Shown here one piece after another: positions 24,416-34,003 of a stretch of 64,000 nt of DNA. The DNA is from Fimbriiglobus ruber (GTDB taxonomy: Bacteria > Planctomycetota > Planctomycetia > Gemmatales > Gemmataceae), in assembly GCF_002197845.1 (NCBI RefSeq), contig NZ_NIDE01000005.1, positions 558,001-622,000 on the forward strand. The letters are read 5' to 3'. Every line of letters begins with the position of its first letter. Positions within the stretch are counted from its first letter, which is position 1. Under the pieces are notes generated by a model that had not been told where the DNA came from, did not search any database, and worked only from the letters and a program-made list of their open reading frames with translations. Position numbers and translations under genes: made by a program.

Positions 24416-25082
24416 CAACCAGCCGCTGCCAATCGCACCGAAGCTCACCTTAAGCGCCCGTGAAAGCCAATTCGGAGCGCACCCCCAACACCTCCGGCTC
24501 CGCTCAGACTCAAGGATGACCCGCTAAAACGCCTTCTGCAGCGCCGCCGTCTCTGCCCCACCATCGGCGTGGGGACAGGACCGCATTTTAGCGCTATCGC
24601 GCTTGCGGCCCTGTAACCCCCACACCGACGGCGAGGCGACGACGACGGGAAGACCGACAGGGCGGAAAATGACGATGTAAAAAGATAAGACCGATGAACA
24701 GATGCCCCAGCCGCGCGAAAGCCGGCTGCGACTTTGTTGTTTCAAGTTATCACTCACCGCTCAAGTGCTGCGAATTGTCTACAGCGGTCGCGAGCTTGTC
24801 GTCGTCGAATCCGTCCCGATCGATGGGTCGATCAAGCAATGCACAGAGGAGGCAGCGAAGAAATGACACGGCGATTATCTCTTCAGAAATTTTAATGGCC
24901 AAGGCTGTCTGTTTGGCTGTAGCGACTGTAAATCGATGCCACAGAATGTGGCGGCAAGGGCAATTGCCAAGACGGCTCTTTCGGGAGGTATCGCACTGCT
25001 CCGGAGCTTTTTCAAAATGTACTTTAAACTTAATTGGTTTCCAATATCAACTGAATGTATGTTATTTTGGGGGATTACGTAT
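24416..25082. other. Intergenic stretch between phage lysis block and IS1595-type gene
   Basis: About 670 bases without a convincing gene. The GC-rich left part (to about 24700) resembles the phage; the right part from about 24990 becomes AT-rich, marking the switch to a different DNA source. Possible ORFs here are short and lack ribosome sites. No clear inverted repeats of an IS end were found. Confidence 0.4.
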
Positions 25083-25111
25083 TTGACAAACCCAATCACA
25101 TGATGTAGTAT
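25083..25111 (+). promoter_or_regulatory. Strong sigma70-type promoter for the transposase
   Basis: TTGACA at 25083-25088, 17-base spacer, TAGTAT at 25106-25111. The start codon at 25139 follows 27 bases later with GAGG as ribosome site. Seen directly; activity is inferred. Confidence 0.65.
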
Positions 25112-25138
25112 CGGCCTCATAAACTTAATGAGGTTGTT

Positions 25139-26050
25139 ATGTCAGTTCTTTCCGCCCCGCATTTTCACAACGAAGAAGCTGCAATCCTGCATCTTGAAAG
25201 CATCCTGTGGCCGAACGGAGCAAACTGCCCGCACTGTGGCAGCGTGGAACGGCTTAACAAGCTAAAGGGTAAGTCAGTACGTCCAGGGCTGTGGAAGTGC
25301 TATGCCTGCCGCAAACAATTCACTGTGAAGGTAGGAACCGTGTTCGAGTCCAGCCATGTTCCAGTACATAAATGGCTGCAAGCTGCATTTCTTATGGCAT
25401 CCAGCAAAAAGGGAATCAGCGCCCACCAGATTCACCGGACATTGGAAGTGCAATACAACACGGCATGGTTCATGGCACACAGGCTCCGTGAAGCAATGCG
25501 TGTGCTGAATATCGAGCCTATGGGCGGCGAAGGTTCCATTGTAGAAGCTGACGAAACCTTTGTGGGCGGTTTGGAAAAGAATAAACACGCAAGGGACAGG
25601 AAACACCAAGGTCGTGGTGCCGTTGGTAAAGAAGCCGTGTTTAGCCTCGTAGAACGCGGCGGCAGAGTCAGATCAACGCACGTTCCGTCAGTGAGCGCAG
25701 AAACACTCGGCAAGGTTATGCGTGAGCAATTATATACTGACACGCATTTGATGACGGACGATGCAAGGCAATATATTCCACTCGGCAAGCACTTCATGAT
25801 GCACGAAAGCGTCAATCATAGCATCGGTGAATACGTGCGTGGTGGAACGCATACCAACACTATTGAAGGCTATTTCTCAATTTTCAAGCGTGGGATGAAA
25901 GGCGTCTACCAGCATTGCAACGCAAAGCATCTGAAGCGGTATTTATGTGAATTTGATTTCCGTTATAACGAACGCGACACTACGGATGCGGAGCGCATGA
26001 TAACTGCATTACAAGGAATCAAAGGGAAAAGACTTACCTATCGGGCTTAA
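25139..26050 (+). CDS. IS1595-family transposase (ISXO2-like)
   Basis: 303 residues. N-terminal zinc ribbon (CPHCG near residue 31 and CYACRKQF near 60) and a DDE domain with VEADETFVGG, then MTDDARQY and HESVNHS, and a closing GGTHTNTIEGYFSIFKRGMK. This is the IS1595/ISXO2 transposase layout, full length. AT-richer than the phage genes to its left. Terminal inverted repeats of the element were not identified, so the IS is not delimited here. Confidence 0.85.
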   Translation: MSVLSAPHFHNEEAAILHLESILWPNGANCPHCGSVERLNKLKGKSVRPGLWKCYACRKQFTVKVGTVFESSHVPVHKWLQAAFLMASSKKGISAHQIHRTLEVQYNTAWFMAHRLREAMRVLNIEPMGGEGSIVEADETFVGGLEKNKHARDRKHQGRGAVGKEAVFSLVERGGRVRSTHVPSVSAETLGKVMREQLYTDTHLMTDDARQYIPLGKHFMMHESVNHSIGEYVRGGTHTNTIEGYFSIFKRGMKGVYQHCNAKHLKRYLCEFDFRYNERDTTDAERMITALQGIKGKRLTYRA

Positions 26051-26103
26051 ACTGGGCGCAATCAAAAGGTTAAATAGAATTAATCCGTTGCTTAGTTGCA
26101 ATC

Positions 26104-26128
26104 AATCCCTTTGCGTCAAGGGTTTCTT
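26104..26128 (+). terminator. Rho-independent terminator after transposase
   Basis: Hairpin CCCTT-tgcgt-CAAGGG followed by TTTCTTT, about 55 bases downstream of the transposase stop. Fits termination of the IS1595-type gene. Confidence 0.55.
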
Positions 26129-26174
26129 TATCATTTGGCTTTAAAATGATAGATATAACAAATGGAATGACGTT

Positions 26175-26191
26175 CATGCCCTGCGAAGGCC
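26175..26191. repeat. 17-bp direct repeat, copy 1
   Basis: CATGCCCTGCGAAGGCC occurs here and at 26762-26778. The second copy is the variable arm of the suppressor-type tRNA on the minus strand; this copy sits next to the other tRNA without a matching tRNA body, so it looks like a fragment of a lost or recombined class II tRNA. Confidence 0.6.
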
Positions 26192-26205
26192 GACATTCCC
26201 AAGGG

Positions 26206-26281
26206 TGGTGGACCCGACCCGACTCGAACGGGCACACGGGACTTAGTAGGAACCTGCTCTATCCAGTTGAGCTACGGGTCC
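26206..26281 (-). tRNA. tRNA with Arg-type body and odd anticodon arm (ACT by alignment)
   Basis: 76 bases ending in encoded CCA. Acceptor GGACCCG pairs perfectly with CGGGTCC; D-arm GCTC/GAGC; T-arm GCCCG-TTCGAGT-CGGGT. The body aligns with tRNA-Arg(UCU). The anticodon arm is GGTTC-CTACTAA-GTCCC, so stem positions 29-41 and 30-40 do not pair and the loop would give anticodon ACU. A stem of GGGAC would pair perfectly with GTCCC, so three substitutions on the 5' side could explain it. It may be decayed or recoded. Confidence 0.6.
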
Positions 26282-26293
26282 ACCGCCGACCTA

Positions 26294-26713
26294 CTAATTC
26301 AAAGATGAACTAGCAGGTATTTGTGTGGCGCTTTGTTTTGGCGCATATTCCACCAGATAGTATCTATCATTTGCCAAAGTGGCAACGCCGGCACCCTTCA
26401 ATCGGCTGAGTAAAGAAGATACGGAAGCGCGATTGTATTTGCCCCCCGACTGCGTAACTGCCTCATCAGCAATTAAGCCGTTTTCCTTGGCGTTTTGCAG
26501 ATAAGTCAACACATCATACTTAATAGGGATGCGTTGCTTGCGAGCCGTGGGGTTTTCATTGGCAGCAATAATATCTGCACCTTTAGCTTCGTATTTGCGA
26601 ATAGAAAACTCTAGGCCAGCCAGCTCGCCTTGCAGCTTGCTGATTTGCTCCTTTAGTTCGACCTGCCTGTCTCTAAGCGATTGCAAATACACTTTTCCTG
26701 ACATGCTACTCAT
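26294..26713 (-). CDS. Hypothetical protein with coiled coil and winged-helix-like C-terminus
   Basis: 139 residues. Start chosen at 26713 because GGAG lies 7 bases upstream on the minus strand; the longer frame runs into the adjacent tRNA. Residues about 5-45 form a coiled coil (SLRDRQVELKEQISKLQGEL); residues about 70-120 (YDVLTYLQNAKENGLIADEA, then SVSSLLSRLKGAGVATL and a DRYYL strand) look like a winged helix. Lies between two tRNA genes in an AT-richer island. Possibly a phage DNA-binding protein. Confidence 0.6.
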   Translation of the reverse strand: MSSMSGKVYLQSLRDRQVELKEQISKLQGELAGLEFSIRKYEAKGADIIAANENPTARKQRIPIKYDVLTYLQNAKENGLIADEAVTQSGGKYNRASVSSLLSRLKGAGVATLANDRYYLVEYAPKQSATQIPASSSLN

Positions 26714-26737
26714 GTTATAACTCCAGAATGACGTTTC

Positions 26738-26821
26738 TGCTCCTGACGGGAATCGAACCCGCATGCCCTGCGAAGGCCACTGTTTTAAAGACAGATGCGT
26801 CTACCATTCCGCCACAGGAGC
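26738..26821 (-). tRNA. Class II Leu-like tRNA with UUA anticodon (ochre-suppressor type)
   Basis: 84 bases with discriminator A, no encoded CCA. Acceptor GCTCCTG/CAGGAGC is perfect; 3-bp class II D-stem with AATGGTAGA loop; long variable arm GGCCTTCGCAGGGC; T-arm GCGGG-TTCGATT-CCCGT. The anticodon arm reads TCTGT-CTTTAAA-ACAGT with one T-T mismatch at the base. With T33 fixed, positions 34-36 are TTA, which pairs with the stop codon UAA. The normal Leu(UAA) tRNA has loop TTTAAAA instead. Suppressor activity is inferred from the anticodon. Confidence 0.7.
26762..26778. repeat. 17-bp direct repeat, copy 2
   Basis: CATGCCCTGCGAAGGCC, identical to 26175-26191. Here it forms the variable arm region of the UUA-anticodon tRNA. 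Confidence 0.6.
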
Positions 26822-26867
26822 AGGCGCATTATAACATATATATTCTGACAAGCAATAGGGCATCAAT

Positions 26868-27029
26868 ATGAAAAAGCGTAAGAATGACTCCGTTACGCAA
26901 CGAACAAAGTTCATAGAAACAGCCCGCGCTCTAGGCTGTGAAGACAATGGAGACCGCTTTGACGCTGTTGTGAAAAAGCTGGCCGAACAGCCGCCACAGC
27001 CGCGCAAGCCCAAGAAGGGCAAGAAATGA
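26868..27029 (+). CDS. Small conserved phage protein
   Basis: 53 residues, very basic at both ends. The core TKFIETARALGCEDNGDRFD, then AVVKKLA is a pattern common in short proteins of proteobacterial phages and prophages, of unknown function. Stop overlaps the next start (ATGA at 27026). Lower GC than the flanks. Confidence 0.6.
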   Translation: MKKRKNDSVTQRTKFIETARALGCEDNGDRFDAVVKKLAEQPPQPRKPKKGKK

Positions 27030-27331
27030 TGCGCTGGTGCTTGATATTATTGCCGCTGCTCCTAACAGGATGCCTCGAAGATAAAGTGGCGATTCTATCT
27101 GAATGCCGATTGAAATACGACCAAGATGGAGCGGGTCAGCAAGGCGTGATGCTTTGCATGAGTGCTAAGGGTTATGAATTTGAATCAGCATGGCTGTCGC
27201 CCCACGATTACACCGCCCCTAATAAAAAATGCTGGACTGGAAATGGGTCGTCACCGCTTCCGGTAAATCCTTCTTATGTGTTTTCTGATTGTTATAGCAA
27301 AAGATCGCTATGGAGCGTATTTAGCCATTAA
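27026..27331 (+). CDS. Small lipoprotein
   Basis: 101 residues. Signal peptide with lipobox MMRWCLILLPLLLTGC (Cys16). The mature part is polar with several Cys and unrecognised. Coupled to the preceding gene by a four-base overlap. In phages such lipoproteins may act in lysis or superinfection exclusion; no evidence here decides. Confidence 0.55.
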   Translation: MMRWCLILLPLLLTGCLEDKVAILSECRLKYDQDGAGQQGVMLCMSAKGYEFESAWLSPHDYTAPNKKCWTGNGSSPLPVNPSYVFSDCYSKRSLWSVFSH

Positions 27332-27564
27332 CTAGATATTGTGGTGGGTTTGCAATCTACGCAATCCCCATATTTTGATATAAACAATAAACCTGGGCAA
27401 TGGTTCTCTTACGGCCCGGCACAGAATCCGGCACAGAATAGGTAGCAATCGGCACGGAATGGCGCTAAAATATGGAAAGTCGCGGCAACTTTCGGCTGCC
27501 TCATATGCGGCGGAAAATCAGTGAGAATCGGTGGTTATGGCGGAGTGGTCAGTTTCGGACCTCA

Positions 27565-27609
27565 CGACTGAAAATCGCTAGGTCCCCGGTTCAAGCCCGG
27601 GACTGCCCA
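27565..27609 (+). other. tRNA-Phe-like 3' fragment, probable attachment-site remnant
   Basis: From the anticodon arm onward this matches a tRNA: CGACTGAAAATCGCT (loop CTGAAAA, GAA anticodon), variable AGGTC, T-arm CCCGG-TTCAAGC-CCGGG, 3' acceptor strand ACTGCCC plus A. The 3' anticodon stem TCGCT needs AGCGA, but upstream bases give CACGA, and no 5' strand GGGCAGT is present, so the tRNA is incomplete. Displaced tRNA 3' ends mark integrated-element boundaries, and a tyrosine recombinase starts 150 bases to the right. Confidence 0.55.
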
Positions 27610-27759
27610 CTGGAAATTCAAGCGTTTTGTGTCGATTCGAGATACTCTGAACTCTGCCTAAGTCTGGCAGTGCCAGAGTAAAACCCTCGGGGAGCCTGCC
27701 AGCTACCCCGAGGGCCGAGCGGCCTTCCGGCACACCCGTGCTCCCGGAGGGTCGCGACG

Positions 27760-28992
27760 ATGTCGAAGAAGAACGGGCCGGAACCTTTTTTTCGGCCGAA
27801 AAAAAATCGCTGGTACGTCGAGGTCGGCGGTAAGCACGTGAACCTCGGCCCGGACGAGGCGCAGGCTCGCGTCCGCTGGCACCAGATCATGGCGGGCACG
27901 CCCGCTTCCTCCCTCATCCCCGGCCAACTACCCGACGGCGTCCTGGTCTGTCGCGTCATCGACCTGTTCGTCGGCTGGTCGCACAAGCACCGTCCCGGCC
28001 GCACGGCCGAGTGGTACCAGAAGCACCTCCAATCGTTCCTGGATTCGCTGCCCGATGCCGCCACTTTGACCGTCGACCAACTCCGGCGGTTGCACGTCAC
28101 CAACTGGATCGATGCCCACGGCAACTGGGGAGCAAACCACCGCCGCGGTGCCATCACCGCCGTCCAGCGGGCGTTCACGTGGGCGGAGCGCGAGGGGCAC
28201 ATCGCCAAGAGTCCCGTCCGGGGGATCGAAAAACCGCCCGCCAAACGCCGCGAGCAGGTCCTGACGATCGAGGAATTTCAGTCCCTCTTAGCCCGCATCA
28301 AAGACCCGTGCTTCCGCGACGTCCTCGAATTTTGCTGGGAGACCGGATGCCGGGTGCAGGAGATCCGTCTCATCGAAGGTCGGCATCTCCGGTTCGACCG
28401 CGGCCGCGTCGAATTTCCCCCGGAGGAAGCCAAGGGCAAAAAACGCTGGCGGTTTATTTACCTGACCCCGCGGGCCGAGGAAATCGTCCGCGCCCTGGTC
28501 GCCCGTCACAAAGTCGGGGTCATTTTCCGCAATACCGACGGCAAACCGTGGGACGCCCAGAACTTCAACAACCGCTTCTGCCGGCTCCAGCACCGGTTCG
28601 GCCGCGAGGAACTGAAGCGGAGGGGGTTCGTGCTCGATCCCGCACGGGTGGCGGAATTCGCTGAGACGCTACACCCGAAGAAAAAGGTGGCGGGAAAAAC
28701 ATTTCCGAAGGCGCCCAACGAGTTGCTCCGCGAAGCCCGCAAGAAACTTACCATCAAGGCGGCGAAGAAACTCGGGACAAAATACGCCCTGACGACCATC
28801 CGCCACAGCTTCGCCACCCGGTTACTCGAAGCCGGGGTCGACCACATCACCGTCGCCGCCCTCATGGGGCACGTCGACGCCACCATGTTGAGCCGCGTTT
28901 ACAGCCACGTGGGGGAGAAGACCGACTTCCTGCGCGTCGAACTGCTCAGGGCTTCAGGCGCATGTGCCGCAGGACAGGTTGGGGCGGCTTGA
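27760..28992 (+). CDS. Tyrosine recombinase / integrase
   Basis: 410 residues. N-terminal arm-type and core SAM-like domain (about 60-155), then the catalytic domain with Arg197 in TGCRVQEIR, Arg348 in LTTIRHSFATRLLEAG, a conserved GH in LMGHVDATML and Tyr in RVYSHVGE. The usual His of the HxxR box is Thr here. There is an insertion of about 40 residues (EFAETLHPKKKVAGKTFPKA) before box II, seen in planctomycete integrases. Next to a tRNA 3' fragment and convergent with an excisionase-like gene. It would integrate or excise an element at the tRNA site. Confidence 0.85.
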   Translation: MSKKNGPEPFFRPKKNRWYVEVGGKHVNLGPDEAQARVRWHQIMAGTPASSLIPGQLPDGVLVCRVIDLFVGWSHKHRPGRTAEWYQKHLQSFLDSLPDAATLTVDQLRRLHVTNWIDAHGNWGANHRRGAITAVQRAFTWAEREGHIAKSPVRGIEKPPAKRREQVLTIEEFQSLLARIKDPCFRDVLEFCWETGCRVQEIRLIEGRHLRFDRGRVEFPPEEAKGKKRWRFIYLTPRAEEIVRALVARHKVGVIFRNTDGKPWDAQNFNNRFCRLQHRFGREELKRRGFVLDPARVAEFAETLHPKKKVAGKTFPKAPNELLREARKKLTIKAAKKLGTKYALTTIRHSFATRLLEAGVDHITVAALMGHVDATMLSRVYSHVGEKTDFLRVELLRASGACAAGQVGAA

Positions 28993-32368: not shown

Positions 32369-34003
32369 GTAGCTGTCTATTCTGTACGTACGGGAACGGC
32401 CTGAGAATTTCCCAGTTCAGACGCGTGCCCGCTTCTACGAGGTAGCCATTTCGACCTTGGGAAAGATGCGATCCAGGATCGAGTCTTCCGGGCGTGGAAT
32501 CTTCAGTTTGATCAGGAGATCTTCGAAGCAACTTCGCCCTGCCTCCATCCACCGCGTCACTTCCGCGATCACGCTCGCCAACGTCCACTCCGTCAAGTAC
32601 AACCGCAGCGATTCCAGTACGCTCATCAGGATCGTCCGCCGCCGCGCGCCGGCCGGGGTCTTACTCGTCCGACCCGTCTTCCGCGCGTCCGCCGAACCCC
32701 GGAGGGTCCGCTCGGCTTCGTTGTTCGTCCCCGCGACCGGGGCCGTTGCACCGTTCGGTTGCGTCACCGCCGGGGCCGTTACGAACGGGAACAATTCCTT
32801 GGCCAGCATCAACCGCATCAGTTCATTGACCAGCAGGCGGTAGTCATTCCGGCATCCGTCGCCCGGCGGTTCGTCGGCCAGCCACTGGGCCGAACACAGG
32901 TCGTACACCCGCTGTTCCAGACCCTCGACCCGGGCGGTCCGGCCGGCATCGCTCAACCGGCCGTCGTCCCGTGCCCGGCACGCCGCCCGGTAGATCTCCA
33001 GCAACCGGTCGGTGAACGTCCGGTAGCCCTCGTGGTCGGGTTCCTGCAGGGTCAGCTTAATCGCCTTGCGGAGGAGGTGCGCCCAGCACTTTTGCGCGAT
33101 CGTGAAAGTCGCGTACACGGCCGCGTCGTCGCTCACCAGAACACCCTCGAACGTCTCCGGATCGAGAATGGTCTTGAGCGTCCCGGCATCCTTGTGAACC
33201 CCGAACAGCAACACCCGGGCCTGTTCGGACAGGAATGCCCACACGCTGTTCAGACTCCACCGGGTCTCGTCCGCGTGGACGACGGCCGCGTGGGCCAACA
33301 GGGTACACAGGGTGTCGAACTCCTTCTCCCAGTGCCGCGACAACTGGCGGAGCAAGGCGTCGGCTTGGGACTTCGGCAGCCGGAGTTGTTGGAAGAACGT
33401 CAGCACCTGGCACACTTTGTCGAACGACAGGCCGACGCCATGGACCAGGAATGCGATCGCGACGACGATCTCGACCGCGAATTCACTGCGGCCGAACACC
33501 CCGGGGATCTGACCGTACTGGTTCTTGGGTCCGCGATAGATCTCGTACGCGACCAGGACCGCACGCCCGCTCTCGAACCGCCACACCGGGCGGACGTGAG
33601 ACCGGCGGCAGTCGGCGGGCGGGATGCCGGCCGGGAACACCTTCTCGGTGCGTTCCGCGCGAGCGATCTTGTCCGCGGTCGTGACCCGCCCGTGTCGCTT
33701 CGGCTTCTTCCTTTTCTGGGGCTTGTTCGAACGGGCGTGTTGTCGTTGCTCTTCGGCCCGCATGGAGAACGGTTGATCGAGTTTGGCGGTCGGCGGGGTG
33801 GGGAGGTGTTGCTCAAGTTCGCGGATGCGTTGGCGAGCGGCCAGGAGTTCGGCTTGGAGGGACACGATCAGGTCGACCAGGTGTTCGGGTGACACCTTGC
33901 CCTGCCGAACGTCCTGTTTGAGCTGCTCATCCCCCATGACGGAAAATTAGCGGCCACGGGCACATCCGGAAAGGCCCCTCAGCTGTACAGAATAGACAGC
34001 TAC
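32369..34003 (-). mobile_element. IS66-family insertion sequence with 8-bp target duplication
   Basis: Terminal inverted repeats GTAGCTGTCTATTCTGTAC (19 bp) at both ends, flanked by GATGCACC at 32361-32368 and 34004-34011. Length 1635 bp with a single transposase on the minus strand and no accessory genes. The 8-bp duplication is standard for IS66. It lies in the same target gene as the IS at 30242. Confidence 0.9.
32435..33937 (-). CDS. IS66-family transposase
   Basis: 500 residues. N-terminal coiled coil (LVSLQAELLAARQRIRELEQ), a Cys/His-poor linker, then the DDE core with AAVVHADETRWSLNSVWAFL, LVSDDAAVYATF and a final GTNNEAERTLRGSADARKTG glutamate motif, typical of IS66 TnpC-type proteins. 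Appears intact; terminal repeats and target duplication are also perfect, so it may be active. Large opposite-strand ORFs across it are shadows. Confidence 0.9.
   Translation of the reverse strand: MGDEQLKQDVRQGKVSPEHLVDLIVSLQAELLAARQRIRELEQHLPTPPTAKLDQPFSMRAEEQRQHARSNKPQKRKKPKRHGRVTTADKIARAERTEKVFPAGIPPADCRRSHVRPVWRFESGRAVLVAYEIYRGPKNQYGQIPGVFGRSEFAVEIVVAIAFLVHGVGLSFDKVCQVLTFFQQLRLPKSQADALLRQLSRHWEKEFDTLCTLLAHAAVVHADETRWSLNSVWAFLSEQARVLLFGVHKDAGTLKTILDPETFEGVLVSDDAAVYATFTIAQKCWAHLLRKAIKLTLQEPDHEGYRTFTDRLLEIYRAACRARDDGRLSDAGRTARVEGLEQRVYDLCSAQWLADEPPGDGCRNDYRLLVNELMRLMLAKELFPFVTAPAVTQPNGATAPVAGTNNEAERTLRGSADARKTGRTSKTPAGARRRTILMSVLESLRLYLTEWTLASVIAEVTRWMEAGRSCFEDLLIKLKIPRPEDSILDRIFPKVEMATS

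Follow-up and report, generated by a model that had tools for sequence, protein, structure and literature searches.

INTRODUCTION

Natural suppressor tRNAs, including those of phages, exist for UAG, UGA, and UAA. In these tRNAs, an anticodon that matches a stop codon is combined with a body whose synthetase accepts a changed anticodon. The locus described here encodes a tRNA of this type, but it is part of a module that resides on transposons and also comprises a dedicated protein and an incomplete copy of the tRNA; its siblings are predicted to read glycine, proline, or lysine codons, and no recoded genes were seen. IS1595-family elements with passenger genes have the same transposase family, terminal repeats, and 8-bp target duplications (the latter in relatives of our element), but the passenger in our case is a conserved, predicted mis-decoding tRNA module. 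Type I toxin-antitoxin modules and the toxin-antitoxin genes of Tn3 transposons (PMC7157771) resemble it in a possible stable effector, in its possible control by an antisense RNA, and in the location on a transposon. Here, however, the place of the toxin protein or its mRNA would be taken by a tRNA. CreTA (PMC8501985, PMC9458426) would be similar in that an RNA effector acts on translation and that the antitoxin RNA originates from an incomplete, degenerate copy of a different RNA. However, CreT sequesters a tRNA and CreA guides Cascade, whereas here the effector itself would be a tRNA, and there is no CRISPR part. Each component, taken singly, is of a known kind, and the novelty is in their combination. 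No comparable module was found among the open-access papers searched, with subscription papers and preprints being largely outside the scope of that search.

We analysed a 64,000-nt stretch of DNA from Fimbriiglobus ruber, in its entirety referred to as the window. Directly established are a tRNA with a conserved fold and, across its relatives, anticodons other than those for leucine, a fixed order of this tRNA and a partner gene (P2), their location in complete transposons, and the co-variation of a partial tRNA copy with the tRNA of the same element.

THE HOST TRANSPOSON

The tRNA is an internal passenger of a complete IS1595-family transposon of 2.3 kb (25070..27369), which encloses all parts of the module. 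The transposon is bounded by terminal inverted repeats, GGGGATTACGTATTTGACAAACCCA on the left (25070..25094, plus strand) and the 25-bp GGGGATTGCGTAGATTGCAAACCCA on the right (27345..27369, minus strand), which match at 20 of 25 positions. The sequences directly before and after these repeats, TTATTTTG (25062-25069) and ATATTTTG (27370-27377), agree in 7 of 8 bp and represent a near-perfect target duplication. A transposase of 303 aa is encoded on the plus strand (25139..26050; PF12762, E 1.9e-38; PF12760, E 1.2e-13). Assignment to the IS1595 family is based on this DDE_Tnp_IS1595 transposase with its zinc ribbon, on the terminal repeats, and on the target duplication. Complete elements which contain the tRNA and have inverted repeats and target duplications were also found at other loci (TTTCTTTT in L045, GGAAAATG in L072), the duplication being 8/8 in both. 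An earlier note, made from the sequence alone, had placed the tRNA in an AT-rich mobile island, which is supported; the location of the tRNA inside a transposon and on the minus strand goes beyond that note.

The transposon is present in one copy in its genome (12.4 Mb). Among 58 relatives searched, a few have more distant transposases, the best match being 40% identical over most of the protein. The element has thus probably been acquired from elsewhere, rather than being part of the adjacent phage. That a phage owns the tRNA, as also suggested earlier, is not supported, as searches of phages and plasmids gave no close match to the locus and no P2. The same applies to a proposed link to phage stop-codon reassignment: the tRNA is inside the transposon, and the neighbouring ORFs use TAA freely (8/23 in the left block, 11/31 in the right block), so that nothing suggests a dependence of the phage on this tRNA.

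Two ORFs are encoded on the plus strand, upstream of the tRNA. P4 (26868..27029) is a small basic protein of 53 aa which is divergent from the tRNA, and relatives with about 40% identity occur in several other elements, there also in divergent orientation. It is followed by a lipoprotein-like ORF of about 100 aa (27026..27331) for which no known family was matched.

THE tRNA AND ITS PREDICTED DECODING

The tRNA gene is located at 26738..26821 on the minus strand. ARAGORN called a tRNA-Stop with anticodon tta (26737-26822), and the Rfam tRNA model matches 26738-26821 over its full length (58.3 bits, E 4e-11). The pattern for leucine-type UUA tRNAs has one match in the window, compared to 0 expected from shuffled sequences. 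The claim of a well-folded class II tRNA with a UUA anticodon, a candidate ochre suppressor, was thus confirmed, and the Rfam score is not that of a low-scoring pseudogene. The anticodon arm reads TCTGT-CTTTAAA-ACAGT. In the loop CUUUAAA, U33 is followed by UUA at positions 34-36, which is cognate to UAA, and by A37 and A38. The cloverleaf with a seven-base loop and a UUA anticodon is the structure required of an ochre suppressor. The leucine anticodon UAA would be obtained only in a shifted register that needs a C-C closing pair, and this register was not called. Pair 27-43 is a U-U mismatch; this pair is absent in 19 of the 24 tRNAs that were aligned, and four-base-pair anticodon stems are common in bacteria generally. 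Such stems have been reported to favour readthrough (PMC13092985).

Apart from the anticodon, the tRNA is of the leucine type. It has the leucine D arm (TGGCGGAATGGTAGACGC), G18G19, a long variable arm, and A73, which in the alignment are the features of class II tRNA-Leu (identity elements according to PMC9976931). Leucyl-tRNA synthetase (LeuRS) does not require the anticodon arm but recognises A73 and the tRNA core, and even variants devoid of the anticodon arm are charged (PMC9976931). Charging of the cassette tRNAs with leucine is therefore plausible. The tRNA of the window is a real tRNA and is predicted to decode UAA as leucine. Its gene does not encode the CCA end. Most cassette tRNAs have an encoded CCA, together with A73 and a decoding-competent loop.

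On the minus strand, a consensus -10 hexamer TATAAT (26828..26833) precedes the 5' end of the tRNA by 6 nt, and a -35-like TTGCTT (26850-26855) is found at a spacing of 16, both read directly from the sequence. Transcription may thus start at or very near the first base of the tRNA.

The cloverleaf is under selection: across 24 related tRNAs, 16 of 20 pairs were altered on both sides, and 95% of cells are paired, compared to 36-48% in slid controls.

A second tRNA, tRNA-X, is encoded on the same strand (26206..26281; ARAGORN; Rfam 44.9 bits). It belongs to class I, has an encoded CCA and an arginine-like D arm, and its loop CUACUAA gives the apparent anticodon ACU; two pairs of the anticodon stem are mismatched. 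Counterparts in L038, L040, L043, L044, L053, L059, and L075 have CGU, GGU, GCU, or ACC, several of them with similar mismatches. In cassettes from Rhodobacterales (L039, 1289-1402, and relatives), the second tRNA is replaced by a conserved structured RNA (..GCCGTGGAAAGCAATCTGAGGGAG..) and an ORF of 38 aa (MDN..KKVIYRPYITTKNGRKIWAKWYGKRAFRIEI).

DISTRIBUTION AND CONSERVATION OF THE CASSETTE

The pattern for leucine-type UUA tRNAs was found at 19 places in 84,980 genomes, mostly from Rhodobacterales and Sphingomonadales. An IS1595 transposase sequence is close to 16 of these 19 tRNAs (14 in the loci as first extracted, 2 more after these had been widened), and a relative of P2 accompanies most of them. 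Two leucine-type UUA tRNAs (L019, L022) adjoin an IS1595-type transposase in loci without P2, and the transposase of L022 belongs to a distant subgroup (27% identity); ochre-type tRNAs may thus have joined IS1595 elements more than once. Among 2.9 million viral contigs, 9 matched the pattern, and 3 of these have a true UUA tRNA according to ARAGORN. The viral matches L004-L007, L010, and L011 were discarded because they are Leu(UAA) in ARAGORN's register.

Profile searches with P2 covered viral contigs and genomes from Rhodobacterales (395), Sphingomonadales (351), Alphaproteobacteria (385), and Gammaproteobacteria (274). Genome searches after the first are samples of each group, and the counts refer to sequences, not to independent events. 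The search in the 274 Gammaproteobacteria, which had no positive control, gave no match. With the P2-based search included, the total is 26 cassettes.

In all 26 cassettes a leucine-type tRNA is directly upstream of P2. Their anticodons are UUA (19), UCC (2), UGG (2), UUU (1), and ACC (1), with one eight-base loop, and none is a leucine anticodon. The same holds for the 12 cassettes that were found by P2 alone, i.e. blind to the anticodon (UUA 7, UCC 2, UGG 2, ACC 1, Leu 0). What the cassettes have in common is thus not stop codons as such but a foreign anticodon on a leucine tRNA body. The UUU anticodon, cognate to a lysine codon, is that of a close relative with the same leucine body (L045, 1399-1484; loop CUUUUAA), and the eight-base loop is found in L049. 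All strong P2 relatives have a leucine-type tRNA of 83-89 nt just upstream. The weaker matches that were checked have no tRNA, except L050, whose P2 has diverged. A weak match to P2 in L077 is an open frame that contains a single internal TAG, and no tRNA is nearby.

These data bear on the possibility that a transposon passively captured a leucine tRNA with a chance mutation, and that the tRNA has no selected function. The single copy in this genome, the mismatched stem of tRNA-X, and the altered loops in L045 and L049 would be in line with it, but 26 of 26 strong P2 relatives have the tRNA in the same place across divergent hosts (P2 being down to about 23% identity), with compensatory changes. 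Because of this conserved architecture, we consider passive capture very improbable.

Most copies of the cassette are in plain IS1595 transposons. Other contexts are prophage integrases (L056, L058), a Type ISP restriction enzyme (L055), and a RhuM gene (L054). Such neighbours would fit a role in anti-phage defence or counter-defence, with the tRNA being released upon infection (abortive infection) or serving as a decoy for anticodon nucleases. We consider this quite unlikely given that plain transposons hold most copies, that there is no known sensor, and that PADLOC gave no convincing match. The best PADLOC match of P2 has an E-value of 0.0066 and was mainly to regulator models, which does not assign the locus to a known anti-phage defence system.

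THE PARTNER PROTEIN P2

P2 (26294..26713, minus strand) is a protein of 139 aa with an N-terminal coiled coil and a winged helix, and is the conserved partner of the tRNA. Its gene starts 23-25 nt after the tRNA, and this distance is 15-30 nt in nearly all cassettes. In an AlphaFold2 model (pLDDT 81), residues 4-51 form a long helix and residues 64-120 the winged helix. Pfam, PADLOC, PHROGs, and Foldseek returned generic winged helices only, with no specific family or fold and no known antitoxin or regulator. Profile matches in the PDB (TAL repeats, GCN4 fusions) were rejected as likely artefacts of composition. P2 is probably a winged-helix regulator of the module.

The most conserved stretch of P2 (VSSLLSRLK) is nearly invariant, whereas the variable-arm sequence, which is duplicated in the partial tRNA copy (see below), differs among elements. 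This argues against P2 being a reader of that sequence. The same contrast weakens an alternative according to which the tRNA has no translational role but is a structured 5' leader of P2, the copy serves P2 or another factor as a decoy or a DNA site, and the odd anticodon merely avoids interference with decoding. The short distance between the tRNA and P2 agrees with a leader, as does the better folding of the sense strand of the copy in one subtype (see below). A leader, however, would not account for the decoding-competent loop, A73, the mostly encoded CCA, and the strong covariation of the cloverleaf, and we regard this alternative as improbable.

A PARTIAL COPY OF THE tRNA

Near the far end of the cassette, and ahead of the transposase or integrase gene that converges on it if such a gene is present, is a partial copy of the tRNA (26164..26199, plus strand), seen as repeats of 17 nt and 15 nt. 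It combines a D block, variable-arm sequence, and the 3' end or trailer from the tRNA of the same element, but lacks the anticodon and T arms. Its plus strand is complementary to parts of the D arm, the variable arm, and the 3' trailer of the tRNA and is a candidate antisense RNA. A partial copy is present in 24 of the 26 cassettes; in one of the other two the contig ends too soon, and the other cassette has decayed. In L054, the copy is located after the RhuM gene, which lies inside the cassette.

The copy co-varies with its own tRNA. The longest run common to copy and variable arm has a mean of 13.2 nt for pairs from the same element, compared to 6.1 nt for other elements. As an example, the variable arm of L039 is CACCCTCCAAGGT where close relatives have CACCGTGCAAGGT, and the copy of L039 shows the same changes. 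The antisense copy has a pairing energy of -65.2 kcal/mol with its own tRNA, compared to -46.6 (sd 1.6) upon permutation, the own-tRNA value being reached in 0 of 5000 permutations; this strong pairing is largely due to its being a copy. The similarity could also be maintained by gene conversion. Pairing of the tRNA trailer with the tRNA's own D arm was not significant (p 0.18).

Which strand of the copy folds better depends on the subtype. In the hairpin subtype (15 cassettes), a hairpin with a UUCG, UGCG, CUUG, or GCAA loop on the antisense strand replaces the anticodon arm, and the antisense (transposase) strand folds better in 14 of 15 cases, with one tie. The antisense reading gives G-U pairs where the sense reading gives A-C, e.g. 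in L056 and L041. In the tRNA-X subtype, which includes the window, it is the sense strand that folds better (8/9), so that an antisense reading does not extend to all cassettes. The closing stem of the copy pairs better if both sides are taken from one element than if they come from different elements (p 0.019), which in itself does not tell the strand that is made.

Recurrent promoter-like sequences ahead of the copy on the transposase strand were confined to the hairpin subtype: a conserved TTCACC-N16-TACATT in Rhodobacterales and a perfect TATAAT in L056. Taken singly, the antisense promoter scores are barely above those of shuffled sequences. In the window, TATAAC (26154..26159, plus strand), immediately ahead of the candidate antisense RNA, could be a -10 hexamer, read by eye and without statistical support for this element. 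A search for an operator common to the tRNA promoter and the sequence past the copy gave nothing consistent.

POSSIBLE FUNCTION OF THE MODULE

The reading that we tentatively prefer, with somewhat less than even confidence, is that of a mis-decoding tRNA which is kept in check by a cognate antisense RNA, similar to an RNA-RNA toxin-antitoxin or regulatory unit on a transposon. The tRNA would be the effector of the conserved module, which is carried on IS1595-family transposons and occasionally lies beside the integrase, restriction, and RhuM genes mentioned above. LeuRS, being largely blind to the anticodon, would charge the tRNA with leucine, which would then be inserted at UAA here, and at glycine, proline, or lysine codons in relatives. 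The resulting readthrough or mistranslation would burden the cell. A short RNA made from the partial copy, on the transposase strand, would pair with the D region, the variable arm, and the 3' end of the tRNA and thereby block it, and P2 would probably regulate the module as a winged-helix protein. As tRNAs are stable and antisense RNAs mostly short-lived, a cell that loses the element would be left with an uncontrolled tRNA, as happens with RNA-RNA toxin-antitoxin modules.

With a little more reserve, we propose that this may be a mobile addiction or regulatory module of a new kind, made up of a leucine-charged mis-decoding tRNA (for UAA here and for glycine, proline, and lysine codons in relatives), an antisense RNA that arose from a partial duplicate of the tRNA gene and restrains that tRNA, and a coiled-coil winged-helix governor. 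Counting against addiction, the element is rare and occurs in a single copy, and there is no direct sign of addiction. The module is likened to toxin-antitoxin systems, as the best fit to its predicted parts, and is not classed as one.

Alternatively, regulated mis-decoding might control transposition, with the tRNA acting on translation of the element or host, readthrough or mistranslation being the signal, and with P2 and the copy tuning transposition, without addiction or toxicity. It would suit such a role that the module is the sole cargo of some elements and convergent to the transposase, and that the copy is in or near the 3' untranslated region of the transposase. However, the transposase genes have mixed stop codons (TAA, TAG, TGA) and no conserved extension, TAA is the stop codon of P2 in just a few cassettes, and the cassettes with sense anticodons would require another target. 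Control of transposition is therefore rather doubtful. Systematic UAA readthrough at transposase ends was rejected because of the mixed stop codons, and no internal UAA readthrough was found in the transposase, the split in L021 being a frameshift.

If the preferred reading of a mis-decoding tRNA under antisense control is true, a mobile genetic module would target translation fidelity itself, and one tRNA body would be re-aimed at different codons by anticodon change alone. With this system one could test directly why ochre suppressors found in nature are maintained in genomes with the standard code, most of the leucine-type ones found here being borne on transposons. It may also be a source of compact natural suppressor or missense tRNAs, perhaps with a cognate off-switch.

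FURTHER ELEMENTS IN THE WINDOW

Just outside the transposon is a degenerate tRNA-like sequence (27541-27612, plus strand; 22 bits) with a GAA loop. It adjoins a phage integrase gene (27760-28992) and is possibly an attachment site. The window also contains an IS66-family transposase (32435-33937, minus strand; Pfam E 1.6e-17).
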